From Armatimonadota bacterium (GTDB lineage: Bacteria; Armatimonadota; UBA5829; DTLH01), in contig JAKPFN010000046.1 of assembly GCA_029551395.1 (NCBI GenBank), forward strand, positions 1 through 64,000: DNA of 64,000 bases, read 5' to 3'. The notes below the pieces were generated by a model, which saw only the letters and a list, made by a program, of their open reading frames with translations, was not told the DNA's origin and did not search any database. Shown in pieces: positions 32,576 through 47,927 of the stretch; positions within the stretch are counted from its first letter, which is position 1, and each line of letters opens with the position of its first letter. The translations under genes were made by a program, and so were the position numbers.

Positions 32576-34324
32576 TTATTCTCTGAATGCGTTAGTGATT
32601 GGAAGCCGCCGGTCTTTACCGAATGCTTTGGGGGTTATTTTTACTCCCGGGGCAGCCTGCCGACGCTTATATTCGTTCCTGTCGACCATTGCAATTACCC
32701 GCCGAACAACATCCTCAGGATAACCTTTGGCTATAATCTCACCTGGAGAAGCATCCTGTTCGATGTAGAGATGCAGTATAGGGTCCAGCAGTTCATAAGG
32801 TGGAAGTGTATCCTGGTCTTTCTGGTCTGGCCGAAGCTCTGCCGATGGCGGCCTTTCTATTGTAGTCTGCGGGATGACAGGGCTTATTGTGTTCCTGTAA
32901 TTCGACAGCTCATATACGAGAGTCTTCGGCACATCTTTGAGCACAGCAAAACCACCAGCCATGTCTCCGTAAAGCGTTGCATAGCCGGTAGCCAATTCGC
33001 TTTTATTGCCTGTGGTTAAAACAAGCCATTTGAACTTGTTGGAAAGAGCCATCAGATAGTTACCGCGAATACGGGCCTGGATATTCTCCTCAGTTACATC
33101 TGATGGATAACCTTCAAATACTGGCTTGAGAGCAGTCTTATAACATTCGAAGACCTCTTGGATTGGGATGGTTATAAGATTTATTCCGAGATTCTTTGCA
33201 AGCAGCTCTGCATCGGTTTTCGTGCCTTCGGATGTGAATATAGACGGCATAGAAACGCCTGTAACATTCTCCGGGCCAAGTGCATCGACGGCTACAGCTG
33301 CTGTTAGTGCGGAATCGATTCCTCCGCTAAGTCCGATGACCACATGGCTGAACTTATTCTTCTTAACATAGTCTCGGGTGCCAAGAACAAGTGCTTTATA
33401 TACTTCCTCAACTCGCTCAGGAGGACTTACTTGCTTTGTTGCCAATCGAGGCCGTTCAATCTCTCGTTTCGGGCCAAGGTCTATCAATCGTACAGGAAAT
33501 TCAGGATCTCTACAGGCAGGAGATTCCTGTCTCCATCTAGGGTCAGCCAGACGGGTATGCCATACGCTACCGATATCAAGGTCTGCGACAACCAGTTCTT
33601 CCTCAAATGGAGTTCCGCGTGATACCAGTTTCGCACGTGGGTCTATAATCATAGAATGACCGTCGAAGACAAGCTCATCCTGACCGCCAACCTGGTTCAC
33701 ATACACAACGTACGCTGAATTATCGCCCGCACGGGTAGTGAGCATACTGTCTCGCCATTTCCACTTGAGCGAATAGAACGGTGAAGCGTTTATGTTGATA
33801 AGAACCTGTGCGCCGGCAAGCGCTTGAGCGCGGTGTGGGCCATCGGGATACCACATATCTTCGCAGATCGATACGCCAAAAACTGGGCCGCCCAGACGGA
33901 AGATAGAAGTTTCGCAGCCTTTTTGGAAGTATCGAAATTCATCGAACACTCCGTAGTTCGGCAGAAACACTTTTCGATGTACCCCGGCTAACTTGCCATT
34001 GTGGATAACGGCAGCAGCGTTATAGATATCTGCATTAACATCTACAAATCCGCAAATAGTGGTGATATCATTTGAAGCTGCAATTATTTTGTCAAGCGCT
34101 TGCAGGTTCTTCTCAAGGAATGATGGCTTAAGGAGAAGATCTTCAGGAGGGTAGCCGGTAATGGCAAGTTCGGTGAAAGCTATAATGTCCGCACCTGCAT
34201 TGCGCCCCTGGTCTATGAAGTCTATTATCTTATCAGTATTGCCTTCGATGTCTCCGACGGTTGGATTGATCTGTGCAAGAGCGATTCTCAGGCTTCCGCG
34301 AATAGATCCGGTATGGTTATCCAA
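32576..34324 (-). CDS. nadE: Glutamine-dependent NAD+ synthetase
   Basis: Makes NAD from deamido-NAD, ATP and glutamine. The 582-aa protein has an N-terminal nitrilase-type glutaminase with the Glu-Lys-Cys triad (FTELAITGYPP, HRKVFLPNYGVFDE, GVSICEDMW) and a C-terminal NH3-dependent synthetase with the P-loop [15 protein letters not shown], followed by NKSELATGYATLYGDMAGGF. TTG 34324 has GGAGG 8 bases upstream; ATG 34345, seven codons earlier, is the alternative. serC lies 74 bases upstream on the same strand, with only a weak four-pair hairpin (34368-34379) between them. Confidence 0.95.
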   Translation of the reverse strand: MDNHTGSIRGSLRIALAQINPTVGDIEGNTDKIIDFIDQGRNAGADIIAFTELAITGYPPEDLLLKPSFLEKNLQALDKIIAASNDITTICGFVDVNADIYNAAAVIHNGKLAGVHRKVFLPNYGVFDEFRYFQKGCETSIFRLGGPVFGVSICEDMWYPDGPHRAQALAGAQVLININASPFYSLKWKWRDSMLTTRAGDNSAYVVYVNQVGGQDELVFDGHSMIIDPRAKLVSRGTPFEEELVVADLDIGSVWHTRLADPRWRQESPACRDPEFPVRLIDLGPKREIERPRLATKQVSPPERVEEVYKALVLGTRDYVKKNKFSHVVIGLSGGIDSALTAAVAVDALGPENVTGVSMPSIFTSEGTKTDAELLAKNLGINLITIPIQEVFECYKTALKPVFEGYPSDVTEENIQARIRGNYLMALSNKFKWLVLTTGNKSELATGYATLYGDMAGGFAVLKDVPKTLVYELSNYRNTISPVIPQTTIERPPSAELRPDQKDQDTLPPYELLDPILHLYIEQDASPGEIIAKGYPEDVVRRVIAMVDRNEYKRRQAAPGVKITPKAFGKDRRLPITNAFRE

Positions 34325-34418
34325 TCGAATGTCCTCCAGTATCATACATGGAGTCTACACCTAAAAAGCCACTTTTGGCAAACAGGCTTAGAGGAATATT
34401 TGCTGTCCTGGCACAGCA

Positions 34419-35498
34419 TTAACCATACTTTGCCTTAAACGCTCTCATGAACGATACGAGTGCATCTACAGCTTCCTGCGGCACAGCGTTATATATGCTT
34501 GCACGGATTCCTCCGACCGATCTGTGTCCTTTCAGCCCGATCATTCCGGCTTTTTTAGCTTCTGATACAAAAAGCTCTTCCAGGTCTTCATTAGGGAGCC
34601 GCCAGACAACATTCATAATAGACCGGCATTTTCTATCGGCTGGTGTGTGCCAAAAGTTGCTGGAATCCAGTTCTTCGTAGAGTGTTGCCGCTTTATGTTC
34701 GTTCAACTTCTCTATCTCAGAGATTCCGCCCAGAGAGTCGAGCCATTCTGTCACCAGTTTCAGAATATATATTGCCCAGGTGTTTGGAGTATTGTAAAGG
34801 CTCTTTTCCTCAAGATGAGTTTTATAACGAAGGAAAATGGGTGCATCTTCAGGCACTCGATCTATTAAATCTTTACGTAGAATTACCAGTGCCAGCCCGG
34901 ATGGCCCCAGGTTCTTTTGTGCTCCGGCGTAGATCATGCCGAACTGGTTTATATCAATGACTCGTGACATAATCTCACTGGACAAATCAGCTATTAACGG
35001 TGCTTTGGTTTTTGGAAATGTGGGATAACGGATGCCTCCGATCGTCTCGTTAGAGCAGATATGAACATACTCCGCGTCTTCAGTAAGGTTGAGTTCTTCA
35101 GTCGCAGGAGTACGCATATAGTTCGCTTCTTTGCCGTCCCATATAACGTTAACGCTGCCTGTGGTCTTTGCTTCCTTGATAGCCTTTGCCGACCAACTGC
35201 CAGTGTGGATATAATCAGCAGTCTTTCCAGGACGGCGAAGGTTCATAGGAACCATAGCAAACTGCATACTGGCTCCGCCTTGAAGGAAAAGGACAGCGTA
35301 ATCGTCACTAATGCCCATCAGCTTTCTGACATTAGCCTCTGCACCTTCGATTATTGCAGCGAAATCCTTGGACCTGTGAGACATCTCCATTACAGACATC
35401 CCAGAGCCAGCGTAATCGAGCATTTCAGACTGCGCCCGCTCCAGAACAGCAAGTGGAAGCGCTGCAGGTCCAGCATTGAAGTTATAAACACGAGCCAT
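34419..35498 (-). CDS. serC: Phosphoserine aminotransferase
   Basis: PLP enzyme making phosphoserine for serine synthesis. The 359-aa protein has NFNAGPAALPLAVLE at the N-terminus, LFLQGGASMQF, DLSSEIMSR and the PLP lysine in YAGAQKNLGPSGL; the C-terminal GLKGHRSVGGIRASIYNA is typical of SerC. AAGGAGT lies 8 bases before the ATG. Upstream on the minus strand a lone TATAAT (35546-35551) could be its -10. Confidence 0.96.
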   Translation of the reverse strand: MARVYNFNAGPAALPLAVLERAQSEMLDYAGSGMSVMEMSHRSKDFAAIIEGAEANVRKLMGISDDYAVLFLQGGASMQFAMVPMNLRRPGKTADYIHTGSWSAKAIKEAKTTGSVNVIWDGKEANYMRTPATEELNLTEDAEYVHICSNETIGGIRYPTFPKTKAPLIADLSSEIMSRVIDINQFGMIYAGAQKNLGPSGLALVILRKDLIDRVPEDAPIFLRYKTHLEEKSLYNTPNTWAIYILKLVTEWLDSLGGISEIEKLNEHKAATLYEELDSSNFWHTPADRKCRSIMNVVWRLPNEDLEELFVSEAKKAGMIGLKGHRSVGGIRASIYNAVPQEAVDALVSFMRAFKAKYG

Positions 35499-35845: not shown

Positions 35846-36262
35846 TTACTTCAGACGTTCTTCTTCAGACTCATCTATCTCCTCGGCAAAGATTTCCTCT
35901 TCTTCCATTTCCTCCTGCCAACCTGAAACCATCTGGTTCCAATAGTTAACATGAGGCTGGATGTCCTCTGTTTTGTCAGAAAAATCAGGTGCTTCGTCAA
36001 GGTCACCTTTAGTAACAGGTAGAACGAGCTGCTTACTGGCTTCGTCCAAAAACATCAGTTCAAGCGGGACTATGGTGCAGCGATTATTGCTATAGCAGAC
36101 CGCGCCGAAGAGTATTTCTCCACTTTCAGTTTCAACAAGCATATCATCAAGGGATCCAATTACCTGACCGTCTGCGTCAGCTACATCCCATCCGAGTAGA
36201 TTAGGTTGTCCCGGTTCTACACGGTAGTCTATCTGTGTCAATCTAACAAGCTCACCAGCCAT
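35846..36262 (-). CDS. PRC-barrel domain protein
   Basis: A 138-aa soluble protein. Residues about 10-100 fit a PRC barrel: LLGWDVADADGQVIGSLDDMLVE...GEILFGAVCYSNNRCTIVPLELMFLDE. An acidic C-terminal tail follows (EEEEIFAEEIDESEEERLK). PRC barrels bind proteins or act as adaptors. It ends the long kinase-FHA operon; GGGGAGGA lies 10 bases before the ATG and 78 bases separate it from the gene upstream. Confidence 0.8.
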   Translation of the reverse strand: MAGELVRLTQIDYRVEPGQPNLLGWDVADADGQVIGSLDDMLVETESGEILFGAVCYSNNRCTIVPLELMFLDEASKQLVLPVTKGDLDEAPDFSDKTEDIQPHVNYWNQMVSGWQEEMEEEEIFAEEIDESEEERLK

Positions 36263-36340
36263 TTGTTTATGGTCCTCCCCTCTCGTGGGACTGATACATC
36301 ACACGATTATTTATGTTGCAGGGTCGCTATCTATACGGGC

Positions 36341-37114
36341 TTACCCTGTGATAACTCTCACCAAAACCTTGGAACCTAACATGAGTCCTAATTCAACAGC
36401 CACATTGCCCATATTGATGGCGATCTCCAGCTGTCCCGATGATCCAAACAGCGCTGCAGGCCCTCCGGGAGTTGCCTCTGCGTATGTTCGTATTGGTCCA
36501 TGGATCAGTTGACCAGAAACGGTGATAACAGCCGTTCGTGAACCCAACCAGTTACGGAACCGGGATTCCTCAATATCTGTAATGCAGTTTCCAAACCTGT
36601 CTATATGGATGATTCGGCCCTCAAAGGTGTTGTCAGAAGGAACAGGCGGAGGTGGAAGCATTACCGGGTCAAAAACCTGCGGCCCAAGCTCTGAAACAGG
36701 TGTGCCGAGCGATAAATAAGCTGCTGCTGGTGAGAAAATGTCTCTGCCATGGAATGTGCTGCTTATCTGTGGAAGCATGAACCGTGAATTGGTGATTTCA
36801 TAAGCCTCAAATTGCTCTTCATTTCGTAAAACTGAAGTTAAAAGGCCATTGTCTGGCGCGACAAACATCCAGCTATTCGTGCGTACAGCCAATGCGCGTC
36901 TTTCAGTACCAACTCCTGGGTCTACTACGGCAACATGGACTGTTCCAGAGGGAAAATATCGGTATGCCGACTCCAGAAGAAACGCGCCTTGTTCAATTGC
37001 CTGAGGTTGAACATCGTGGGTGATGTCTATTATAGTTGCATCAGGCGAGATAATCTGGGCAACATAAGTGTCTGATGCTCCGAAATCCGTTAGAAGTGTG
37101 ATAATTGGAGGCAT
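36341..37114 (-). CDS. SAM hydroxide adenosyltransferase family (DUF62)
   Basis: A 257-aa relative of SAM hydrolases, fluorinase and chlorinase. Conserved features are ITLLTDFGASDTYVAQ with the Asp near the start, IIDITHDVQPQAIEQGAFLLESA, VVDPGVGTERRALAV, APDNGLLT, FHGRDIFSPAAA and the C-terminal DRFGNCITDI. DUF62 members in non-halogenating bacteria hydrolyse SAM to adenosine and methionine. Oddly, about six residues are absent after YVAQ, where the family has a conserved KG turn. It begins 5 bases after the kinase stop. The link to phospho-signalling is unexplained. Confidence 0.85.
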   Translation of the reverse strand: MPPIITLLTDFGASDTYVAQIISPDATIIDITHDVQPQAIEQGAFLLESAYRYFPSGTVHVAVVDPGVGTERRALAVRTNSWMFVAPDNGLLTSVLRNEEQFEAYEITNSRFMLPQISSTFHGRDIFSPAAAYLSLGTPVSELGPQVFDPVMLPPPPVPSDNTFEGRIIHIDRFGNCITDIEESRFRNWLGSRTAVITVSGQLIHGPIRTYAEATPGGPAALFGSSGQLEIAINMGNVAVELGLMLGSKVLVRVITG

Positions 37115-37119
37115 TTCGG

Positions 37120-38799
37120 TTAGCCTGATTGTTTGTTAATGTCCGTCAATCGCTGTTCAGCTATAGGAGACCAGTCGGGGTCGAACAGCAGCGGATCTTC
37201 GGCTACCTTCCGATAAAAAGATTTAGCCTGCTCAGGATTGGATGATGCCAGCCTGTCTCCCTGGTTGATGTAGATTTCACATAATCGTTTTCTGGCAGCC
37301 TGAGCGAAGTCGTCATTACCTCCTGTTTCGATGGCCTTTCGTAATTCGGCATCATATGTAGAGTAACCAAGGTAATGGTCAGCTATTCCCAGATAGTAGT
37401 GACCAGCAGAGTATGTAGGGTCAGCGTCAACAGTCCAGCTTGCATATTGCTTTAGTGACCTATATTGGCGCTGCTCAAGAGATTTTCCTGCCAGATCTGC
37501 GTATACATGAGCAAGCCGTCTGCGTGCCTCTGCACCTGCTTTTCCTGTACCTGCAGCCCTTTTTGCATTGTTGTACTGAACAAGAGCATCATCCACTCTG
37601 CCTTCTTTCATCAGCTTGTCACCCTGGCTGATGTATTTAGTGACGATTCGAGTCCGGGTCTGTTCGTCATACTTTGAATAGGCTTCGGTTACCATCCAAA
37701 TAGCAAGTAAAAGCAAACCGGTCAGGCTGAGAACAATGAAAAGTGTTCCTAAGAATGCTCTTGTTTCCGGCGACATTCCTTTTCTTTGTGGAATCGGTGT
37801 CGGTACAGGTGACGATGGTACCGATTGAGCAAACGGATCAGGAACATATTGCCCTCCTGAAGGTGATGGAGGAGGGGAATATGTGGTTGGCGGCGCATAC
37901 GTTGTCGGTGGCGAGCCTGTGCCGTAGGTTGTCATAATGCCCTGCGGCATAGGTGGGCTGTAAGGGTCGGAATATAGAGTTGCTCCATTGGCAGGTTCTT
38001 GCTTCAGAGCATCAGCCATTTCTTCCACAGACTGGAACCGCATATTGGGGTCTTTGGCCATAGCTTTTCTGATAATAGCTACCAGGTGAGGCTGGACTCC
38101 AGGTGGCGGAGGCGGTTCTGAGTTCATAATATTGTAGGTGATAGTGACTACCGTATCACCAGCAAACGGTTTCTGGCCGGTAAGCATTTCATAAAGCAGC
38201 ACACCGAGCGAAAAAATGTCAGAGCGGCCGTCAATATTCCTGCCGGAAACCTGCTCTGGAGACATATAGCTTGGAGTGCCAAAGACCTGTCCGTTGGCTG
38301 TGATAGATGGTTCTGACATTATTCTGGCGATGCCAAAATCAGTCAGCTTAACGTGCCCGCCAGGTAATATCTGAACATTTTCAGGCTTAACATCCCGGTG
38401 GACTATATTATTCTGATGTGCCAGTGCCAGTGCTTCACAAAGCTGTAATGTAATGTCTACAGCATCCTTAACAGGTAGAGCGCCACGAGCTTTGATAGTG
38501 TCTCGAAGAGTCTGACCTCCCAGAAACTCCATTGCGATGAAGAACCGGTCACCTTCCTGACCTATTTCGTAGACTGTCACGATATTCGGGTGTTCCAGAC
38601 GTGCAGCAGCCTTGCCTTCGCGCATAAAACGCTCGATACGTTCGCGTTTTTGTGCGCCATCGATGTTGGGAGGAAAGTACAACTCTTTGAGCGCGACGCG
38701 TCGGCCCAGCGTTGGGTCAGTCGCCTCGTAGACGATGTCGTTGCTCCTCGCAATCTCTCGTATTATCTGGTATTTTCCAAGAGTGTTGGTTGATTCCAC
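37120..38799 (-). CDS. Ser/Thr protein kinase with membrane anchor and TPR-like repeats
   Basis: A 559-aa Hanks-type kinase. The kinase domain (10-265) has Lys38 (VALKEL), Glu61, HRDVKPEN at 134-141 and DFGIA at 154-158; a GTPSYMSPEQ activation-loop end is present. A Pro/Thr/Tyr-rich linker leads to one transmembrane helix (FLGTLFIVLSLTGLLLLAIWM, about 353-373) and an extracytoplasmic helical-repeat region (about 390-555) with TPR-like spacing (VDDALVQYNNAKRAAG, AGHYYLGIADHYLG). Exceptionally, the glycine-rich ATP loop lacks glycine: IREIARSNDIVYEA instead of GxGxxGxVY. It lies 3 bases after the PP2C phosphatase gene; both belong to the FHA/VWA operon. GTG start with a weak ribosome-binding site. 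Confidence 0.93.
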   Translation of the reverse strand: MESTNTLGKYQIIREIARSNDIVYEATDPTLGRRVALKELYFPPNIDGAQKRERIERFMREGKAAARLEHPNIVTVYEIGQEGDRFFIAMEFLGGQTLRDTIKARGALPVKDAVDITLQLCEALALAHQNNIVHRDVKPENVQILPGGHVKLTDFGIARIMSEPSITANGQVFGTPSYMSPEQVSGRNIDGRSDIFSLGVLLYEMLTGQKPFAGDTVVTITYNIMNSEPPPPPGVQPHLVAIIRKAMAKDPNMRFQSVEEMADALKQEPANGATLYSDPYSPPMPQGIMTTYGTGSPPTTYAPPTTYSPPPSPSGGQYVPDPFAQSVPSSPVPTPIPQRKGMSPETRAFLGTLFIVLSLTGLLLLAIWMVTEAYSKYDEQTRTRIVTKYISQGDKLMKEGRVDDALVQYNNAKRAAGTGKAGAEARRRLAHVYADLAGKSLEQRQYRSLKQYASWTVDADPTYSAGHYYLGIADHYLGYSTYDAELRKAIETGGNDDFAQAARKRLCEIYINQGDRLASSNPEQAKSFYRKVAEDPLLFDPDWSPIAEQRLTDINKQSG

Positions 38800-38802
38800 A
38801 GG

Positions 38803-39765
38803 TTATCTAAAAAATCCAAAAAACCGTTTCTTTGGTGTATCGGGTTTAGGGTCAGTGTCGTAAATCTCTTCAGATTCAGCAGCCTCATCTTTCACAATAT
38901 CTTTTATTACTACGATCATCGCAGTGATATTGTCATTCCCACCGCGTTCGTTGGCTGCGTCTATCAGATCCATTGCAGCCTGTGACGGAGCATTGCCAGC
39001 TACAATGTCGCGAATATCAGTTTCGGATAAACTGCCAGAGAGTCCATCAGAACATAAAACAATTGTATCACCTGGTTGAATCTCCTCTGCAAATACATCC
39101 GGTTCTACTACGGGAAGATTGCCAAGAGACCGGGTTATTACATTCCTGAATGGTGACAACCGTGCTTCTTCTTCAGTCATGACGCCCCGGCGGACCTGTT
39201 CAGCTATCCATGAGTGGTCTTCTGTGATCTGTCTGATGTCTCGACCGCGTATCAAGTAAGCTCTGCTGTCTCCAACCTGTACGAAATATGCTGTGTCAGC
39301 CCTGATAACGACCGCTGTCAGCGTAGTTCCCATACCTGAGCGTTCGACGATCATTTGAGCTGCGTCATAAATTAGCTTGTTGGCATCGAACACCGCACGG
39401 GTCAAGCTGCCTACTACATCAGGTGAGGAATCTTCATAATATACCTTAATCACCCGCTTGAGTGCCATCTCACTGGCTATCTGTCCGGCTGCATGACCAC
39501 CCATACCATCTGCAACAGCATAGAACAGGCCTTTATTTGCAAGGATATCTGGATCTTCAGGCTCGAAAAAGTCGAATTTATCCTCATTGTTTTCCCGCAC
39601 ACAGCCAAGGTCGGTGCGAGCAGCCATTTTTATAACAGGATGGATATGTTTGGCTCGAGTAGCGAGCTTTTCCCATTCCTGAGAAAGCTCAGAAGGTTGA
39701 AGCTCAGCCGTTGTTTCTATGTCATCGCCTGTTACAACAGGTGTTGTTTCGTTTTCCTGGTTCAT
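38803..39765 (-). CDS. PP2C-family Ser/Thr phosphatase
   Basis: A 320-aa metal-dependent phosphatase of the PstP/Stp1 type. Metal-binding motifs are present: ARTDLGCVRENNEDKF (Arg and Asp), FYAVADGMGGHAAGQ, MGTTLTAVV, VQVGDSRAYLIR, DHSW, IVLCSDGLSGSL and GGNDNITAMIVV at the end. The N-terminal about 45 residues are an extension with two ETT motifs (ENETTPVV, IETTAEL), similar to sites phosphorylated by mycobacterial PknB. It should reverse the action of the kinase gene directly downstream. No membrane segment. Confidence 0.94.
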   Translation of the reverse strand: MNQENETTPVVTGDDIETTAELQPSELSQEWEKLATRAKHIHPVIKMAARTDLGCVRENNEDKFDFFEPEDPDILANKGLFYAVADGMGGHAAGQIASEMALKRVIKVYYEDSSPDVVGSLTRAVFDANKLIYDAAQMIVERSGMGTTLTAVVIRADTAYFVQVGDSRAYLIRGRDIRQITEDHSWIAEQVRRGVMTEEEARLSPFRNVITRSLGNLPVVEPDVFAEEIQPGDTIVLCSDGLSGSLSETDIRDIVAGNAPSQAAMDLIDAANERGGNDNITAMIVVIKDIVKDEAAESEEIYDTDPKPDTPKKRFFGFFR

Positions 39766-39780
39766 AATCCAGCCTTTCGT

Positions 39781-40494
39781 TTACATGGAGCCCATTTTAA
39801 CTACGCGAGTCCTGGTCAAACGGTCGTGAAGCATTCTGCCCTGGCTATCCCATATAGCGCAGAAAATCCCAACTATTGAAACAATAGCTGGTATCAAGGA
39901 CATTAGTCTGAGAATGGCAGCACGATAGTCCAGAGCTTCGCCATTGTAGCGAACAACGCCTATATCAAGAGAAGCCATTCCAGGAGTCTGTCCATTTTCT
40001 GCAAGACTGTGCACAAAATAGATAATCGTACCACCAGTAAATATGCTCCAGAATAAAACACGCGCCCAAGGCAATTCACCAGCACCAAGTGGCACTGTAG
40101 GATCACCGAACAAAAGCCAGAATGCCATCCAGAGTATAGTCAAAGCGCATCCGAGAATCAGAATGTCGATACCTGCTGCTATGGTTCTAATAAAAAATCC
40201 AGCAGGCTCCAATTGTGCAGGGACGACTACAGGAACATCTCTCAGGAGTTCATCTTCACTCGGGCGGTCGGCACATTCGTGACAGAATGAATCACCATCA
40301 ATGAACTCCTCACATGCCTCGCATAACTCCAGACCACAGGCGCGGCAAGTACTGACTGCAAAACGCCACGGATGGTTGGCACATACCTGTTCATTGACAA
40401 CTAACCTGGATTGCAGTCCCCAACCGCACACTATGCACTTTTCAGCGTCTGGCTCGTTCTCGGCGCCGCATTTTGAGCATTTCATATTCTGCAT
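39781..40494 (-). CDS. RDD-family membrane protein with two zinc modules
   Basis: A 237-aa protein. A zinc ribbon (CSKCG...CIVCG, about 5-24) and a B-box-like module (CANHP...CRACGLELCEACE...CHEC, about 38-77) precede an RDD membrane domain with three hydrophobic helices (about 105-127, 143-165, 200-220); the RDD signature is seen as GFFIRTIAAGIDILIL...QTPGMASLDIGVV...MLHDRLTRTRVV. Its role is unknown. Zinc modules may recruit proteins of the same locus to the membrane. The gene lies 15 bases upstream of the PP2C gene in the operon, and AAGGA precedes its ATG. Confidence 0.85.
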   Translation of the reverse strand: MQNMKCSKCGAENEPDAEKCIVCGWGLQSRLVVNEQVCANHPWRFAVSTCRACGLELCEACEEFIDGDSFCHECADRPSEDELLRDVPVVVPAQLEPAGFFIRTIAAGIDILILGCALTILWMAFWLLFGDPTVPLGAGELPWARVLFWSIFTGGTIIYFVHSLAENGQTPGMASLDIGVVRYNGEALDYRAAILRLMSLIPAIVSIVGIFCAIWDSQGRMLHDRLTRTRVVKMGSM

Positions 40495-40502
40495 TCTGTT
40501 CC

Positions 40503-41564
40503 TTAGACAGTGAATCTGAATGACACCTGAGCAAATGTTACCATATCGCCGTCGTTTAACTGGCGAGGTTGGTTTGGTTCCAGCTTTTCTCCATTAACAA
40601 ATGTTCCATTGGTACTCCCGATATCGGTCAGCGTAAACGTTCCATCTTCTGCTGTTATCACAGCATGGCTGCCGGAGACATATGGATCTGCAATAGCTAT
40701 TTTATTAGTCGGTCTTCTGCCAATAGTATTCTCGCCAGGATGGATTTGAATAACATCTCCACCAGCCTCAGGTATGAGTCTGGCCAGTGAAGGTTCTTCT
40801 TCGTGTATCTCGACAGGCTGAACCGGTTCTTCAAGAGATTGTTCGGGTGTTGCAATAAACTCCGATTCAATATCCTGGCCGATTGACATTTCTACCTCTA
40901 CAGATTCTTCAGCAGCACTCTCCTGAACCTGTTCCATTTCAACAGGCGGATTCATCGGTTCTTCTGCAGCTTGCTCTACGGCAATCGATTCTTCAGAATA
41001 TTCTTCTAACTCTTCAGCTTCTTCGACTTCCCTTGCTGATTCGGCTGAAGCGATTGCCTGGTCACTAGCCGGAGCTTCAAACCTGAGCACTGTCGACCCG
41101 AACCGAATCTCCATCCCTGAAGTCACTTCCACTGGCTGGCCTGGTTCAACCTTCTTATCACCTGCATAAGTCCCGTTGGTACTGCCAATGTCTTCCAATA
41201 AGTACTTACCATCTGCGACAGTAATCTTTGCATGCCTGCGGGAGACTGTAGGATGCATAACAAGAACATCGGTATTCTCTCTGCCTATCGTGTTTTCTCC
41301 CGGATTCAGAGTAAATTCACGTCCGCCGGTTGGTTCAATAAGCTTGGGCAAGGCCGGAGCAGGCTCAGGTGATTCTACAATCTCTTCAGGTGCTGATGAA
41401 AGCAGAAAACCACAATCAGAACAGTACTGCTCTCCTGCTGGTGTGGTAGTCTTGCAAATCGGACAGGTAACGCTAACGGCCATTTGAGTGGCTTCCACAC
41501 CCGGAGCAGGCATCATCTGCGTTGCATTATCGTTTGCGAGTTGAGTTTTTTCGATATCGTTCAT
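40503..41564 (-). CDS. Soluble double-FHA protein with zinc ribbon and TQ motifs
   Basis: A 353-aa adaptor. The first 30 residues hold three Thr-Gln-(Leu/Met) sites (EKTQLA, NATQMM, EATQMA), then a zinc ribbon CPICK...YCSDCG. Two canonical FHA domains (about 80-165 and 265-350) each have GRE/GRR, SRRHA / SGSHA and STNGT(Y/F). Between them lies a roughly 90-residue Glu-rich low-complexity linker. FHA domains bind phospho-threonine, so this protein can both read and present pThr. ATG 41564 with GGAG six bases upstream is preferred to ATG 41576. Confidence 0.9.
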   Translation of the reverse strand: MNDIEKTQLANDNATQMMPAPGVEATQMAVSVTCPICKTTTPAGEQYCSDCGFLLSSAPEEIVESPEPAPALPKLIEPTGGREFTLNPGENTIGRENTDVLVMHPTVSRRHAKITVADGKYLLEDIGSTNGTYAGDKKVEPGQPVEVTSGMEIRFGSTVLRFEAPASDQAIASAESAREVEEAEELEEYSEESIAVEQAAEEPMNPPVEMEQVQESAAEESVEVEMSIGQDIESEFIATPEQSLEEPVQPVEIHEEEPSLARLIPEAGGDVIQIHPGENTIGRRPTNKIAIADPYVSGSHAVITAEDGTFTLTDIGSTNGTFVNGEKLEPNQPRQLNDGDMVTFAQVSFRFTV

Positions 41565-41606
41565 GATTATCTCCATAGAACCGGTTACGCTCAGTAAGCC
41601 GATATT

Positions 41607-42977
41607 CTATTTAGCTCCTTTGCCTCTGTCGAGATTGTAGATGGTGCCGACAAGCGTCTTTTCAACACCAGCGCCCTGCTTGATGTTGTCGATAGCCTGC
41701 TGAATCTCCTGTGCCTGCAGTGTTTTGCCTTGCTGGACAAGGATAGACATTGTCCTTTCGAGCTCCTGGACTGCTGCGGCTGGTGAAATCTGCTGGGTGC
41801 GCATTCCCATAACTGTCCGCTCGAGATTTCTGGACGCAAGCGCAACTTCTATCTCCCGCTGAACCTGCTGGTTGACGTTTGCAGCAACCAGAGCTTCATC
41901 TGGTGTGAACTCAAGGACTACATCCTCTGTAAGCCGTTCAGCCCGGCCTGTAACTGAATCATCGTAAGTAACCTCAACCCTGGCAACCCGATAAGTGCCT
42001 GCAGGTCTGGGGCCAAACTCAAGTTCAACGAGCGCGCTCTCAGCGCTGCCTCTTTCAACGTCCGGCAGAGTAGTCTCAGCAGTTCGATTGCCGAATGTAG
42101 GCAAGTGACCATAAATCTGTCTGACCTGAACCCATCTGGAAAGGTTGATTCTCAGCTTTAGGTTGCGGGCAACCACCGTCATCAGAGTCTCAAGTTCTTT
42201 TCGGAAGACCTCAGGGATTAAATCAGGCCGGGTGATGTAGTAATAATTACCTCCAGCCTTTCGCGCGATTCCTGCCAGAAGTTCTTCATTGTATTCGTTG
42301 CCGAAACCGAGTGCTGTGATTGTTATACCTCGGCTTTTTTGCTCACCGACAAGCCCTACGATGGAACTGAAGTCTTTGATACCGGCAGTTGGGTCACCAT
42401 CAGTGAAAAGCAAAGCACGGTTAACGTAATTGCCGGAATAAACGCTTGCTATCTGGCTTGCACCGGCAGCGATGCCGTCGAAAAGGTTGGTGGTATTTCC
42501 TACATCAAGCCTGTTGATATGTTCCTTGATGAGCGCCTTGTTAATTACCTTTCGAGCAGGCATTATAACCTCTACACGCTCTTCAAATGCAACGATGGAA
42601 AGAACATCGTTTGGTTCCAACAGGTCTACAACGTAACCACAGGCACGTTTTACATATTCAAGAGGCTCGCCTTCCATCGAACCGCTGCGGTCGATGATAA
42701 GACACAGATTGAGCGGCATCCTTGCGCCACCCATCACATTACTTGCCATAAGACTGACAAGCAGATGCTCTCGCGATGCGCGAGTGGAAAGCGCATACTT
42801 ATTACCTGGAATGCACTGGAGAGTGATACCCTTTTGCGGTGGGCCTACCATCTGAGTTCTGGCAGGATCGAAACCTCCAGGACCAGTCATCTGCGTTTTA
42901 TATGGGTCCTGCTGCCCAAAATTGCCTACCTGTGTGCGGTTGTTGTCGAACGGCGGAATCATTTGTGTGCTATCCAT
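41607..42977 (-). CDS. VWA-domain protein with N-terminal TQ repeats
   Basis: A 456-aa protein. The N-terminus contains four Thr-Gln-(Met/Val) sites at Thr4, Thr15, Thr28 and Thr41, spaced 11-13 residues apart. The VWA domain (about 95-275) has the MIDAS DRSGSM, a TNLFDG threonine and FTDGDPT, followed by a beta-rich region and a helical C-terminus (QRE...LASRNLERTVMGMRTQQ). No transmembrane segment is seen, so it is a cytoplasmic MIDAS protein resembling TerY/YfbK-like members. It lies between two FHA genes in the kinase operon. GAGGG precedes the ATG. Confidence 0.92.
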   Translation of the reverse strand: MDSTQMIPPFDNNRTQVGNFGQQDPYKTQMTGPGGFDPARTQMVGPPQKGITLQCIPGNKYALSTRASREHLLVSLMASNVMGGARMPLNLCLIIDRSGSMEGEPLEYVKRACGYVVDLLEPNDVLSIVAFEERVEVIMPARKVINKALIKEHINRLDVGNTTNLFDGIAAGASQIASVYSGNYVNRALLFTDGDPTAGIKDFSSIVGLVGEQKSRGITITALGFGNEYNEELLAGIARKAGGNYYYITRPDLIPEVFRKELETLMTVVARNLKLRINLSRWVQVRQIYGHLPTFGNRTAETTLPDVERGSAESALVELEFGPRPAGTYRVARVEVTYDDSVTGRAERLTEDVVLEFTPDEALVAANVNQQVQREIEVALASRNLERTVMGMRTQQISPAAAVQELERTMSILVQQGKTLQAQEIQQAIDNIKQGAGVEKTLVGTIYNLDRGKGAK

Positions 42978-43045
42978 ATAATGCCCTCATCATTGTTGGT
43001 TGCAGGTCTTGATAGACTTGTATTAATGCTATTTTAGGAATAAAA

Positions 43046-44512
43046 CTACGCTTCAAACCTAAACTTCGTGCTTCCTATCTGCACGGTATCACCGGTTTGC
43101 AGTATATGCTGGGTGATACGGTTGTTATTGACATGAGTGCCGTTGGCGCTGCCCATATCGTAAATAACGAACTGGCCACCTTCGTTTACGATTCTTGCAT
43201 GTTGCCTGGATACCGTATTATCGCTGCTTAACGATATAGTCCTATCCGACTGTCGGCCAATGGTTGTTTCCCCAACGAGTATCAGATTGAATACCTGATT
43301 TGCAAACGGTCCTGATATTGCAGTAAGTCTTGGTCCAGAACCTGCCTGTGTGCCTGCATTCAGCCCAACGGTCGGTTCCGAAATTGGTTGTGCAGCCTGC
43401 GTAGCTACAGTAGCCTGCATTGTTTGTTCTGCAGCAGTGTTGTTAGGCTGCATAGGCGGCGGGCTGCCGTTAACTGAACAAGAGCAGTTACCTGAAGCAT
43501 CTTTAATGCTTCCACAGAACGGGCAGATGTGCTGAGATGTTGGAATTCCCGATCCTGCTGTGCCGTAAAGGTCGTTCGACCTTGGGATTACTGACCGTGT
43601 TGCTTTATCTCGGAACAGCAGCTTTGTCATGCCTATCTGGATAATATCCCCATCCTTCAGCGTGTGCTGTTTGACCTTCTGCCCGTTGACAGATGTTCCG
43701 GCAAGCGTATTCAGGTCATGTAAAACATGCCTGTAGGGGTCTGCTTTTATCAGGAAATGCCTTGGTTCAACATCCGGGTCGCCGAAGATCGGTATATCAA
43801 CCAATTCATCCCTGCCGACAACAGTTTCAGGCTTATACACCAGGAATTCCTTACCTTCATTACGGCCTTTCAGATGAACAATAGAAGCCCGCTTGGTCAC
43901 TTCTTCTATGAAACCGATGAATAGTCCTGCGGAACCTGCAGTAATCATGAAACCAATCATTCTCAATAATTGCAAAGGAACGCTAAATATCCATAGGATT
44001 TGAAAAACAAACCCACCTACTGCACCACCGATGAATCCTCCGACAGCACCGTTGATCATTTTCTTGGTAGACTCGGTTGAAAGTCCTTGTGCCAGACCTG
44101 TAAAAAGCCCAATTAGCGCCCAGCCTGCTGTGCGGCCTATTAAGACAATAATAAAAGTCAAAGTATTTGGTGGGGCATCAGGATCATAACCTGAAAGCTT
44201 CAAAAGCGGTATATAGATCAACTGGTTGCCGAGAGAAAGCCCTAATGCACCGCCGACAGCGCCAACAGCAAGTCCAATAAATATGCTCTTGTACGCATCT
44301 TTCCGAGACACGCCGGACAATGCTTCGGCAAGCCCCAGCCCAAGGCCAAGAAACATGCCAAAAATCCCGCCGAGCGTTATCATCTGTGGGTATGTTAAGT
44401 CTCTATTACTCATATCACCGGATGGTGTAAGTGCCTCGATTGGTTCTACGATTATCCAGGCAATCAATCCACCCAGTGCAGCGAGTATAAGATATCGAGC
44501 AATTCTTGCCAA
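43046..44512 (-). CDS. Polytopic membrane protein with two FHA domains
   Basis: A 488-aa protein. About five to six transmembrane helices fill residues 5-205, rich in Gly/Ala (LGGIFGMFLGLGLGLAEAL and similar). A first FHA domain (about 220-300) has GRDE but EPRHF in place of SxxH. A zinc-knuckle CPFCGSIKDASGNCSC follows near 330, then a Pro/Gln/Thr linker and a canonical second FHA (about 400-488; GRQSDRTISL, SRQHA, SANGTHV). The layout suggests a membrane receptor for phospho-threonine proteins. TTG start with GGAG nine bases upstream. It lies between the VWA gene and another FHA protein gene. Confidence 0.88.
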   Translation of the reverse strand: MARIARYLILAALGGLIAWIIVEPIEALTPSGDMSNRDLTYPQMITLGGIFGMFLGLGLGLAEALSGVSRKDAYKSIFIGLAVGAVGGALGLSLGNQLIYIPLLKLSGYDPDAPPNTLTFIIVLIGRTAGWALIGLFTGLAQGLSTESTKKMINGAVGGFIGGAVGGFVFQILWIFSVPLQLLRMIGFMITAGSAGLFIGFIEEVTKRASIVHLKGRNEGKEFLVYKPETVVGRDELVDIPIFGDPDVEPRHFLIKADPYRHVLHDLNTLAGTSVNGQKVKQHTLKDGDIIQIGMTKLLFRDKATRSVIPRSNDLYGTAGSGIPTSQHICPFCGSIKDASGNCSCSVNGSPPPMQPNNTAAEQTMQATVATQAAQPISEPTVGLNAGTQAGSGPRLTAISGPFANQVFNLILVGETTIGRQSDRTISLSSDNTVSRQHARIVNEGGQFVIYDMGSANGTHVNNNRITQHILQTGDTVQIGSTKFRFEA

Positions 44513-44536
44513 TAGTTAGTCTCCAACTGACAGTTA

Positions 44537-45865
44537 TCAGACTTCGAATCTGAACTTGGTACTTCCTATCTGTATTTCATCACCAGGCTGCAACTGATGC
44601 CTTCCGGTGATGCGCATTCCATTGACATAAGTTCCGTTTGAACTGCCTTCATCGGTGATTGTAAATGAACCGTTTTCCTTTGCAATTCTTGCATGTCTAC
44701 GGGAAGCAGTATTGTCCTCTGGTAAAGCTATCTCATTGTCTGGGTCACGCCCTACAATAATGCTGTCACCAGATATCTCGAATATTCTGCTGGAATATTG
44801 ACCTTGAGTGCCTATCAACCTGGGTATTCCGATGGTGCCAGATGCAGGTGTGGCGGAAGATTGTGCATCTACACTGCAGGCACAATTGCCGGTTACAGGG
44901 TCTTTTCTCTGACCGCAGAACTGGCAGATATTTGGATCTATATGCTGTTGAGGTTCTGCTGCAGGGACAGTTCCGGCATCAGCAGTATCTTGTGGGAATT
45001 GCACTCCCAGCTTCCTCAGGCTGCTTTCAAAGCTGCCGCCTTTGGCTTTGATGATAACATAACCGATGAATCCTATCATCCCGATGATAGCAAGACCCAT
45101 AATATACTGCAGCCAGGCAAATGATGGTTGATCATCCTTTTTTGCTTTCGTAGGAGCAGGTTCGCCGTCCTCACTTACCGCAGCAGAATCGCTTGAAGCC
45201 ATAGCAGTCTTTACCTTTACAGTTCGGACTTTACCTGCTACTGGAACTTCCTCGACATAAATAGGCTCATCTCGTTCAGTCGGGATTTCAAGGTCAACCG
45301 TCATCCTTCGAGTTCCGTTGTATTGAACTTCGACACTGACAGCGCCGGCGGCAATATCATGAAACTCTGCGACTCCTTCTGACAGTGGGTCCACAAGAAC
45401 CGTAAAAACATCCGAGTTGGCATCGGTCAGCGTTACGACAGCAGACTCTAATCTCTCGTTTTCTTTGCCACTGGTTGGTTTTAGGACAACCTGAACAGTG
45501 CGGACGAGGTCGAAATCGGTATCTTTTAACTTGAGGTCTTTCTTATCCTGTAGATTCTCCAGATTTTTGGCTGCTACATTGCCGGTTTTCGGGTTGTAAA
45601 TCTTCAATGTGCCCTTTGGGAGCTTGCCTTCGACAGCGGTGAGTGCCAGATCGATGTTTGTATCGGCTCCGGCAGCGTGGACAGGGGCATTTAGCTTGAT
45701 TTTGCCTGCTTCATCTTCCAATTCAAGCCAGTAGATGTAACTGCCTTTCTCCGGGAATGTAACTTCAATGGTAGGATCAGCAATTAATGCGGTTGTCAGA
45801 AAGGAGAATGCAATTACAATCAGAACGGCTACTGCTTTTTGTCTCATATACTCATCCTTTATCAT
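44537..45865 (-). CDS. Exported/membrane FHA protein
   Basis: A 442-aa protein. A signal segment (AVAVLIVIAFSFLTTALIA) is followed by about 220 residues of beta-rich extracytoplasmic domain, then one transmembrane helix (about 255-275, YIMGLAIIGMIGFIGYVII), a zinc-knuckle CQFCGQRKDPVTGNCAC near 325 and a C-terminal FHA domain (GRDPDNEIAL, SRRHA, SSNGTYV). With the C-terminal part in the cytoplasm it could relay an envelope signal to pThr proteins. The ATG overlaps the upstream stop as ATGA. The outer domain has no family I recognise. Confidence 0.86.
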   Translation of the reverse strand: MIKDEYMRQKAVAVLIVIAFSFLTTALIADPTIEVTFPEKGSYIYWLELEDEAGKIKLNAPVHAAGADTNIDLALTAVEGKLPKGTLKIYNPKTGNVAAKNLENLQDKKDLKLKDTDFDLVRTVQVVLKPTSGKENERLESAVVTLTDANSDVFTVLVDPLSEGVAEFHDIAAGAVSVEVQYNGTRRMTVDLEIPTERDEPIYVEEVPVAGKVRTVKVKTAMASSDSAAVSEDGEPAPTKAKKDDQPSFAWLQYIMGLAIIGMIGFIGYVIIKAKGGSFESSLRKLGVQFPQDTADAGTVPAAEPQQHIDPNICQFCGQRKDPVTGNCACSVDAQSSATPASGTIGIPRLIGTQGQYSSRIFEISGDSIIVGRDPDNEIALPEDNTASRRHARIAKENGSFTITDEGSSNGTYVNGMRITGRHQLQPGDEIQIGSTKFRFEV

Positions 45866-47412
45866 TCGTTATCAGCTCCAACTTCCGCAAGTGCTCTTGG
45901 GAGCAGCGGCAGAAGGTCAGTGGCCGAAACACCGGCGTCACCTATCTTATCCTCTGTTAATTCACCAGCCCTGCCGTGTAAATAGACACCACAGATTGCA
46001 GCATCTAATGGTTCCAGCCCCTGGGCGAGGAGTCCGACGATTGCACCAGTAAGTATATCACCAGTTCCCCCGGAAGCCAGCGCAACACTGCCGGTAGAAT
46101 TGATCCATGCTTCACCGGAAGGAGATGCAATCACGGTTGAAGCACCTTTGAGCACCATAGTAACGCCAAATCTTTCAGCCGCATCCTGAGCAGCCTTCAG
46201 TCTGTTAGACTGTATGGCTTCTACTGGGGTTCCTGTGAGGCGAGACATCTCACCAGGATGAGGAGTTAGGATGGCAGGTGATTTGAGCCTGCTTAGTACG
46301 GTTGTATCCTCTGCGATGGCATTCAAACCGTCTGCATCGATAACCATCGGTTTGTCGATTTGTGGAAGCAGTTCATGAATAAAAGCGATTGTCTCAGGAT
46401 TCTTTCCAATCCCAGGGCCGATGGCGACAGCATCACATCTGTCAATCAGTTCCAGTGCTTTATCAACTGCAGAACGAGAAAATGATCGGTCTGGGGTTTC
46501 AGGAAGTGGAACAGTCATCGCTTCAGTTACTTTTACCTCAAGAATGTCGTTCAGACTCTCGGGTACGGCCAGTGTGACTAGTCCAGTTCCGATGCGGACG
46601 GCAGACATTGCAGACATTGCCGCAGCACCGGTCATACCAACAGAACCAGCAATGACTGCAGCGTGCCCAAATGTGCCTTTATGAGCGTCAGGCGGCCTTG
46701 CGGGCAGCCGCAGGAATACATCCTCTTCTTCTGTGTAGAATGTTGAGATATCAGATGATTCTATAGCTGCTTCTGGAATGCCTATCTCGGCGACCATTAT
46801 CTCTCCAGCACATTCAGCTCCTGGATAAGTAGCAAGACCGATTTTAGGCAGGCCAAAGGTTATGGTAGCGTTGGCCTGGACGCATCGCCCGCATATCTGG
46901 CCTGTATCTGCATCAAGCCCTGACGGCAGATCGACGGCTACAATAGGCCTGCCGGAGTCGTTGATGGCGTCTATGACCTCACCAGGAAGACCTGTAATCT
47001 CTCCTTTTATACCTGTGCCGAACAGTGCGTCTACAATGATGTCGCACTGAGAAAGCGCTAATCTGAGAGATTCTGCATCTGTAATTGGATTGATTGTGAT
47101 ACCGGTCTTGAGGATAATTTCGTAATTGACCCGCGCATCGCCTTTTATATCTTCAGCATTTCCTGCGAGGAAGACTATTACCTCTGCGCCGACTTCATGA
47201 AGATGCCTTGTAACGACAAAACCGTCTCCGCCATTGTTGCCGCGGCCGCAAACTATTCCGACACGATAACCTCCGACTTCCATGAGGACATCGTAAACGA
47301 AATCGAACGTCCTGAGGCCGGCATTTTCCATCAAGATGATACTCGGGACACCGAACTCGGCAGTGGCTCGCCTGTCTAACTCTCTCATTTGTGCTGCGGT
47401 TGCAATTCTCAT
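45862..47412 (-). CDS. nnr: Bifunctional NAD(P)H-hydrate epimerase / dehydratase
   Basis: Repairs hydrated NAD(P)H. The 516-aa fusion has the YjeF_N epimerase domain (about 1-215; VGIVCGRGNNGGDGFVVTRHL, VDALFGTGI, VDLPSGLDADTG) and the ADP-dependent dehydratase domain (about 225-510; HKGTFGHAAVIAGS, VIDADGLNAIA, LTPHPGEMSRL, GSVALASGGTGDILTGAI). Both active domains look complete. It starts ATG 47412. A partial copy of its first about 28 bases lies upstream at 47464-47491. Its coupling with the FHA gene downstream by ATGA suggests co-transcription with the kinase locus. Confidence 0.95.
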   Translation of the reverse strand: MRIATAAQMRELDRRATAEFGVPSIILMENAGLRTFDFVYDVLMEVGGYRVGIVCGRGNNGGDGFVVTRHLHEVGAEVIVFLAGNAEDIKGDARVNYEIILKTGITINPITDAESLRLALSQCDIIVDALFGTGIKGEITGLPGEVIDAINDSGRPIVAVDLPSGLDADTGQICGRCVQANATITFGLPKIGLATYPGAECAGEIMVAEIGIPEAAIESSDISTFYTEEEDVFLRLPARPPDAHKGTFGHAAVIAGSVGMTGAAAMSAMSAVRIGTGLVTLAVPESLNDILEVKVTEAMTVPLPETPDRSFSRSAVDKALELIDRCDAVAIGPGIGKNPETIAFIHELLPQIDKPMVIDADGLNAIAEDTTVLSRLKSPAILTPHPGEMSRLTGTPVEAIQSNRLKAAQDAAERFGVTMVLKGASTVIASPSGEAWINSTGSVALASGGTGDILTGAIVGLLAQGLEPLDAAICGVYLHGRAGELTEDKIGDAGVSATDLLPLLPRALAEVGADNE

Positions 47413-47561: not shown

Positions 47562-47927
47562 TTATTCGTCACAGGCCATCAACAGCGCTGTTGCCGTGGC
47601 GTAATATTTGGAATGTGACATAGTAATCATAACCAGGCAGCCTTCAGTCAAACGTTGTGCCAGACCGGATAATCGGACTTCAGGTTTGCCCTGCGATCCA
47701 TTGATTATCTCGACATCCTGCCAGGATAATGATCTTCCTATTGCTTTTCCCACAGCCTCTTTTGCTGCGAATCGAGCCGCAAAATGCGGATAACAATCCT
47801 TTCTTGCTTTGCAGTAGTCGATTTCAACAGGTGTGAACACTCGCTTCGCAAAGCGAGGCGTATTATCTATCACCCATGCGATTCTGTCTATTTCTATAAT
47901 GTCGGTTCCAATACCAATAACTTGCAT
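47562..47927 (-). CDS. acpS: Holo-[acyl-carrier-protein] synthase
   Basis: Transfers 4'-phosphopantetheine from CoA to ACP. At 121 aa it has the family start VIGIGTDIIEIDRI (Asp metal ligand) and ARFAAKEAVGKAIG with the catalytic Glu/Lys, ending in VMITMSHSKYYATATALL. A 149-base gap to nnr contains a decayed duplication of the nnr start. It may lead the operon. Confidence 0.96.
   Translation of the reverse strand: MQVIGIGTDIIEIDRIAWVIDNTPRFAKRVFTPVEIDYCKARKDCYPHFAARFAAKEAVGKAIGRSLSWQDVEIINGSQGKPEVRLSGLAQRLTEGCLVMITMSHSKYYATATALLMACDE

Follow-up and report, generated by a model that had tools for sequence, protein, structure and literature searches.

A predicted ArnB-fold VWA protein with an ArnA-like FHA partner, a kinase and a phosphatase in Armatimonadota: a candidate phosphothreonine switch

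The archaeal ArnA-ArnB protein pair influences the archaellum and metabolism. In Sulfolobus, the kinase acting on this pair is ArnC and the phosphatase is PP2A (PMC6509490, PMC12852372); a zinc finger keeps the two proteins in a loose pair, and an FHA domain binds phosphorylated ArnB tightly (PMC12852372). In bacteria, VWA, PP2C and kinase genes stand together in the TerY-P triad and in the vWA-PP2C-kinase theme of GAP1-N2 systems (PMC7159879). Here we analyze a row of ten genes (positions 35846-47412) on a stretch of 64,000 nucleotides from an Armatimonadota bacterium (contig JAKPFN010000046.1), which we call the window. The row encodes a VWA protein, a soluble protein with two FHA domains (dFHA), two membrane FHA proteins (FHA1tm and FHA2tm), a PP2C phosphatase and a Ser/Thr kinase (STK). 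We consider it somewhat probable that these proteins form a phosphothreonine switch around an ArnB-fold VWA scaffold and the ArnA-like dFHA, with a kinase and a phosphatase of its own and two membrane FHA docks.

The minus strand carries all ten genes, separated by intergenic gaps of -4 to +78 bp, in the transcription order nnr, FHA1tm, FHA2tm, VWA, dFHA, RDD, PP2C, STK, S-adenosylmethionine (SAM) hydrolase, PRC. Pfam and NCBIfam matches confirm FHA (five domains in three proteins), VWA, RDD with a zinc ribbon, PP2C (above the Stp1 cut-off), Pkinase, SAM_HAT and PRC, the last only just at its cut-off. A first-pass annotation of this DNA had described the same genes, domains and single strand, and was correct in this. 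However, it omitted nnr, which lies inside the interval and in the conserved row.

Profile and model comparisons assign the ArnB fold to the VWA protein. For a profile of 20 VWA relatives, the best match in the PDB is 8s05 (E 2.5e-27, profile positions 73-416), a structure of ArnA and ArnB from Sulfolobus acidocaldarius in complex (PMC12852372). Foldseek, given the AlphaFold model of the VWA protein, ranks the same entry first over 412 columns, nearly the full length; 4fx5 and 5a8j, an ArnB paralogue, follow closely. In this model (mean predicted local distance difference test score, pLDDT, 86), beta strands flank the VWA domain on both sides, and the C terminus forms a four-helix bundle. The metal-ion-dependent adhesion site (MIDAS) is intact, as the first-pass annotation had stated: its DxSxS motif is kept in 60-61 of 61 relatives, and its Thr in 55 of 61.

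The dFHA gene directly follows the VWA gene, and its zinc ligands are spaced identically to C21, C24, C35 and C38 of ArnA. From its sequence, we classify dFHA as ArnA-like, a zinc ribbon with an FHA domain that is here doubled. Both of its FHA domains are canonical in all 43 relatives, as are the FHA domain of FHA1tm (R/S/N, 35/35) and the second FHA domain of FHA2tm (36/36). The first FHA domain of FHA2tm is degenerate: in most relatives, the Ser and Asn that would contact phosphothreonine have been lost. Therefore, four of the five domains look canonical, and in these four the phospho-binding residues are invariant; the count of five domains in three proteins given in the first-pass annotation stands, with this one degenerate member. 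GarA/OdhI and Bdellovibrio DgcB (6hc1) are among the top fold matches of the FHA domain of FHA1tm. The top 50 Foldseek matches of FHA1tm all fall on FHA, and none on its extracytoplasmic part. In several families (L060, L065, L066, L071, L072, L074, L077, L078 and L090-L093), dFHA has an N-terminal DnaJ-like domain, which matches Pfam DnaJ in L065.

Some known FHA proteins, such as GarA/OdhI and Bdellovibrio DgcB, bind an N-terminal tail once it is phosphorylated. Both the VWA protein and dFHA carry N-terminal tails with Thr-Gln motifs, mostly of the form Thr-Gln-Met (TQM). The VWA tail (residues 1-45, pLDDT < 50) contains STQM, RTQV, KTQM and RTQM, and the dFHA tail KTQL, ATQM and ATQM. TQ is found 83 times in 51 VWA tails versus 18.2 ± 3.7 times after shuffling, and the longer pattern DP[NGMAL][RKA]T 45 times versus 0.1; in 31 dFHA tails, TQ is found 46 times versus 10.1 ± 2.8. 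Among relatives, the length and spacing of the VWA tail vary, and the motif is kept. Multisite phosphorylation would be expected to leave such a pattern, a short motif that is conserved although its spacing varies, and the Thr-Gln motifs are predicted sites. In the VWA protein they cluster in the N-terminal tail, not in the C-terminal bundle. Two pattern searches of the window genome for closely spaced, in-frame TQM pairs returned only VWA and dFHA, along with one match whose spacing puts it out of frame. For pairs of the spacings searched, no further gene came up as a possible client.

Relatives of the VWA protein were searched for in 151 genomes of the phylum, and strong ones were counted in 89. 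For gene order, we read the surroundings of VWA genes in 60 regions and those of unlinked parts in 20 more; record titles among related loci give the phylum as Armatimonadota, including Chthonomonadales and Fimbriimonadaceae. Many assemblies are drafts, genes were called by simple open reading frame finding, and the profiles were home-made. Scattered neighborhoods, which would have spoken against the arrangement seen in the first pass, were not what these regions contained. The order nnr, FHA1tm, FHA2tm, VWA, dFHA, PP2C, STK recurs across many families, and these seven genes are the conserved core. Over the families in which gene order recurs, VWA identity is 39-79%. All six neighbors are kept in 13 of the 42 VWA loci that have long flanks both upstream and downstream; FHA2tm is upstream of VWA in 34 of 49 loci, dFHA is downstream in 35 of 47, and nnr is upstream of FHA1tm/FHA2tm in most families.

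The first-pass annotation had also listed the RDD, SAM hydrolase and PRC proteins in one set with the FHA, VWA, PP2C and kinase proteins. Only the latter belong to the core, and the neighborhoods of relatives do not support the other three. RDD is patchy: a few distant families have it in the corresponding position, and the nearest relatives lack it. Beside the kinase in relatives, PRC was recognized in the nearest one and SAM hydrolase in one other.

Genome counts, compiled by hand from separate searches, also tie the parts together. Among the 151 phylum genomes, VWA and dFHA are both present in 86, both absent in 61 and discordant in 4; for VWA and the signature kinase described below, the numbers are 80, 57 and 14. 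In at least some genomes with VWA and no kinase match (L044, L047, L069 and L071), the loop reads GRSND or AQSND and so escaped the pattern. The significance of this co-occurrence is overstated because genomes were treated as independent.

These data bear on a rival explanation, that nnr-FHA1tm-FHA2tm and VWA-dFHA-PP2C-STK are two unrelated operons adjoining by chance. The two blocks are separate in several families (L193-L201), and nnr is a housekeeping gene, which would suit such an explanation. However, one joint order is found in many families, as the 13 of 42 loci with all six neighbors attest. Also, Fimbriimonadaceae hold FHA1tm-FHA2tm-VWA together despite having moved dFHA, and a protein homologous to FHA2tm, with six transmembrane (TM) helices and FHA, accompanies VWA and zinc-ribbon FHA genes even outside the phylum (L101 and L102). 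We therefore regard chance adjacency as unlikely.

The kinase is unusual in its nucleotide loop. In place of the GxGxxG loop of Hanks-type kinases, the window kinase has the glycine-free REIARSNDIVYEA, and the loops of all 30 operon kinases examined are of the type RE-I-ARSND[IV]V[YW]EA, including GRSND and one AQSND variant. The Hanks-type catalytic residues are present (VALK, HRDVKPEN and DFG) and kept in relatives, and among PDB entries PknA and PknB come closest. A DNA pattern for the ARSND loop matches 85 of the 151 phylum genomes, once each except for one genome with two, and a reversed-pattern control had no match in these 151. Beyond this set, the pattern matched all 3 additional Armatimonadota genomes and none of 31 genomes from elsewhere. 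Median identity is 61% in the kinase domain and 18% in the part after the TM helix; a conserved kinase domain with a variable region beyond the membrane is as expected of a sensor. STK is the predicted writer and PP2C the predicted eraser.

It is nevertheless conceivable that STK is a pseudokinase or scaffold, the tails being marked by another kinase, or that TQM tails dock unphosphorylated. The loop is free of glycine in 30 of 30 relatives, and the genome encodes other kinases: its 3.58 Mb, searched for FHA, Pkinase, PP2C_2, TerD and VipA, gave four Pkinase matches above cut-off, four of PP2C_2 and seven of FHA (five at this locus). Yet the catalytic Lys, HRD and DFG are retained in relatives, a PP2C gene adjoins, and the phosphothreonine pockets of the FHA domains are invariant. 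Moreover, RIO and Bud32 are active kinases without a canonical glycine loop. On balance, this whole reading seems to us quite improbable.

The weakest contender, to which we give very little credence, is a variant PknB-PstP-FhaA/B locus, in which peptidoglycan synthesis and division would be under the control of the kinase, PP2C and FHA proteins. Such a locus shares the component types, and its PknA/PknB kinases are the nearest in the PDB. However, RodA, FtsW and penicillin-binding genes are all absent from the row, this type of locus is present elsewhere in the genome, and the PknB locus is not known to have an ArnB-fold VWA hub. That separate locus, just past the window (contig C43, 64.4-73.4 kb; L207:4427-13371), looks PknB-type, with a fusion of RodA/FtsW and penicillin-binding protein, FHA, PP2C and a kinase with TPR repeats. 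A third FHA-PP2C-STK triad lies near the end of contig C105 (L208:7717-10878), and its kinase loop has normal glycines. A role in anti-phage defense was rejected: the only PADLOC matches were to the kinase domain, which is generic, and weak ones to PP2C and a single FHA region.

Returning to the phosphothreonine switch, we envisage the following steps. A signal would be perceived via the variable C-terminal region of STK, which would phosphorylate the TQM motifs in the tails of VWA and dFHA. The unphosphorylated VWA-dFHA pair may be held loosely by the zinc ribbon, as in Sulfolobus ArnAB, and binding of phosphorylated tails by FHA domains, in cis or in trans, would then tighten it. The FHA domains of FHA1tm and FHA2tm could bind phosphorylated tails and so draw the complex to the membrane; by analogy with ArnAB, the membrane FHA proteins would compete for these tails or recruit them. 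Dephosphorylation by PP2C would reset the switch. We infer tail phosphorylation, FHA-tail binding and membrane recruitment, and the anatomy fits the logic of phosphothreonine switching between cytoplasm and membrane put forward in the first pass.

Several observations weigh against this proposal. Phosphorylation in the switch is predicted, and the activity of STK is not certain because its loop lacks glycines. The phosphosites of ArnB lie in its C-terminal bundle, at the other end from the candidates here. In many families the row is split, with nnr-FHA1tm-FHA2tm apart from VWA-dFHA-PP2C-STK, and in Fimbriimonadaceae FHA1tm-FHA2tm-VWA are usually together and dFHA, often with PP2C, is elsewhere; the parts of split rows still co-occur in genomes. 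No output gene was found among the genes that follow the kinase in other families: a gene of approximately 350 amino acids at this place (L051:4060-5121, L053:15448-16515, L055:14729-15763) has no Pfam match and gave no lead to an output. Nothing ties the operon to pili, and no search for a pilus or motility link was made. Finally, the ArnB architecture is widespread and mostly unlinked to phosphorylation (PMC12852372). Therefore, the fold alone is insufficient to call the VWA protein an ArnB; the adjacent zinc-ribbon FHA partner, kinase and phosphatase strengthen the ArnB-type reading.

A broader interpretation is one that we hold tentatively, with doubt slightly outweighing conviction. The row may be a phylum-specific relay with its own code, in which an ARSND kinase subfamily writes on TQM repeats in the tails of its two partners, and matched cytoplasmic and membrane FHA domains read them. 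It would then be an ArnAB-type device, common to bacteria and archaea, that serves as a main phospho-switch of Armatimonadota.

The ArnA-ArnB papers that we found all concern Sulfolobus, and finding this pair of folds in a phylum of bacteria puts this type of switch in both domains. The operon encodes the predicted writer, eraser and membrane readers together, a self-contained set for reconstitution, and the candidate phosphosites of the TQM tails and the unusual kinase loop are testable with few purified proteins. In the open-access literature, we found no paper describing the locus and no named system matching it in full, in agreement with the first-pass view that the complete arrangement is undescribed. 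Nothing combining Armatimonadetes, protein kinase and FHA was found there either, so the row would offer an early handle on signaling in this phylum.

Coordinates of all features are listed in Table 1. In the row, nnr is probably a housekeeping passenger. Upstream of it lies acpS (47562-47927), whose position is kept within the class, and downstream of the locus (32576-35498) are genes for a class-V aminotransferase and NAD synthetase.

Table 1. Positions in the window of the ten genes and of their predicted parts
Feature	Position	Strand	Basis
nnr, bifunctional NAD(P)H-hydrate epimerase/dehydratase (repair enzyme)	45862..47412	-	Pfam YjeF_N + Carb_kinase
FHA1tm: N-terminal hydrophobic helix, extracytoplasmic beta domains, TM helix, zinc hairpin, C-terminal FHA	44537..45865	-	Pfam FHA, AlphaFold model
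FHA1tm TM helix, residues 250-275	45041..45118	-	model helix, hydropathy
FHA1tm FHA domain	44564..44761	-	domain match
FHA2tm: 5-6 TM helices, FHA, zinc hairpin, FHA	43046..44512	-	domain matches, conserved neighbor
FHA2tm first FHA	43631..43825	-	domain match
FHA2tm second FHA	43073..43267	-	domain match
VWA protein, predicted ArnB fold (VWA splits beta-sandwich; C-terminal helix bundle)	41607..42977	-	Pfam VWA, profile, model, Foldseek
VWA predicted disordered N-terminal tail, residues 1-45	42843..42977	-	pLDDT < 50, motif enrichment
VWA MIDAS motif DRSGSM	42675..42692	-	
VWA C-terminal four-helix bundle, counterpart of ArnB RHB domain	41625..41870	-	model helices 370-451
dFHA, soluble adaptor: zinc ribbon + two FHA (ArnA-like by sequence, FHA doubled)	40503..41576	-	
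dFHA N-terminal tail	41475..41576	-	motif enrichment
dFHA zinc ribbon CX2C-X10-CX2C (C38, C41, C52, C55)	41412..41465	-	
dFHA first FHA	41097..41291	-	domain match
dFHA second FHA	40533..40727	-	domain match
RDD membrane protein with zinc ribbon/B-box	39781..40494	-	Pfam
PP2C phosphatase, Stp1/IreP family	38803..39765	-	NCBIfam above cut-off, motif positions
STK Ser/Thr kinase, one TM helix + variable C-terminal region	37120..38799	-	Pfam/NCBIfam
STK glycine-free nucleotide loop REIARSNDIVYEA	38722..38760	-	
STK TM helix, ~residues 349-372	37684..37755	-	sequence, hydropathy
SAM hydroxide adenosyltransferase, local neighbor	36341..37114	-	Pfam
PRC-barrel protein, local neighbor	35846..36262	-	Pfam

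The component set is not confined to this phylum. VWA genes stand beside zinc-ribbon FHA, PP2C and STK genes in Chloroflexota (for example, L098, L099, L101 and L104) and in a Halobacteriales archaeon (L170), and therefore the set is wider than the Armatimonadota operon. As far as we found, these clusters are unnamed. They share the component types, and L101 and L102 include a homologue of the six-TM protein FHA2tm. However, their gene order differs, their kinase loops have glycines where the loop was seen, and their zinc-ribbon FHA proteins have mostly two zinc ribbons and one FHA domain, with no N-terminal TQM tail. The Armatimonadota version is thus marked by N-terminal TQM tails, the ARSND kinase and the present gene order. 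In L170 (9890-14673), genes for VWA, a kinase with fused FHA, PP2C and a zinc-ribbon protein stand in a row, and a twin TQI is found at the VWA C terminus. L102 (4779-7094) encodes a 771-amino-acid membrane protein of FHA-VWA-FHA architecture, whose N-terminal part is homologous to FHA2tm.

The first-pass annotation had compared the row with TerY-P triads and with the PpkA-PppA-Fha sets of type VI secretion systems, while stating that tellurite and secretion genes are missing. The latter statement is borne out, and membership in both is rejected: the genome has no match to TerD and none to the sheath gene VipA/TssB. The PpkA-PppA-Fha sets do share a kinase, PP2C and FHA protein with the row, and the VWA protein here, unlike that of TerY-P, is an apparent ArnB-type three-domain protein with FHA partners. 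GarA/OdhI and DgcB resemble the row in having an FHA domain with a Thr-bearing N-terminal tail, but here the tails are on two partner proteins and have several TQM repeats.

In place of those comparisons, the closest relative is archaeal ArnA-ArnB, as the 8s05 profile and Foldseek matches indicate (PMC6509490, PMC12852372). In both, a VWA protein of apparent ArnB fold is encoded beside a protein with zinc ribbon and FHA. The archaeal pair is a target of a Hanks-type kinase and of a phosphatase; genes for both types are present in the operon, here with the kinase and a PP2C rather than PP2A in the same row. The operon differs from the archaeal system in its bacterial host, its doubled FHA, the N-terminal place of its candidate sites, its two membrane FHA proteins and its lack of an archaellum.

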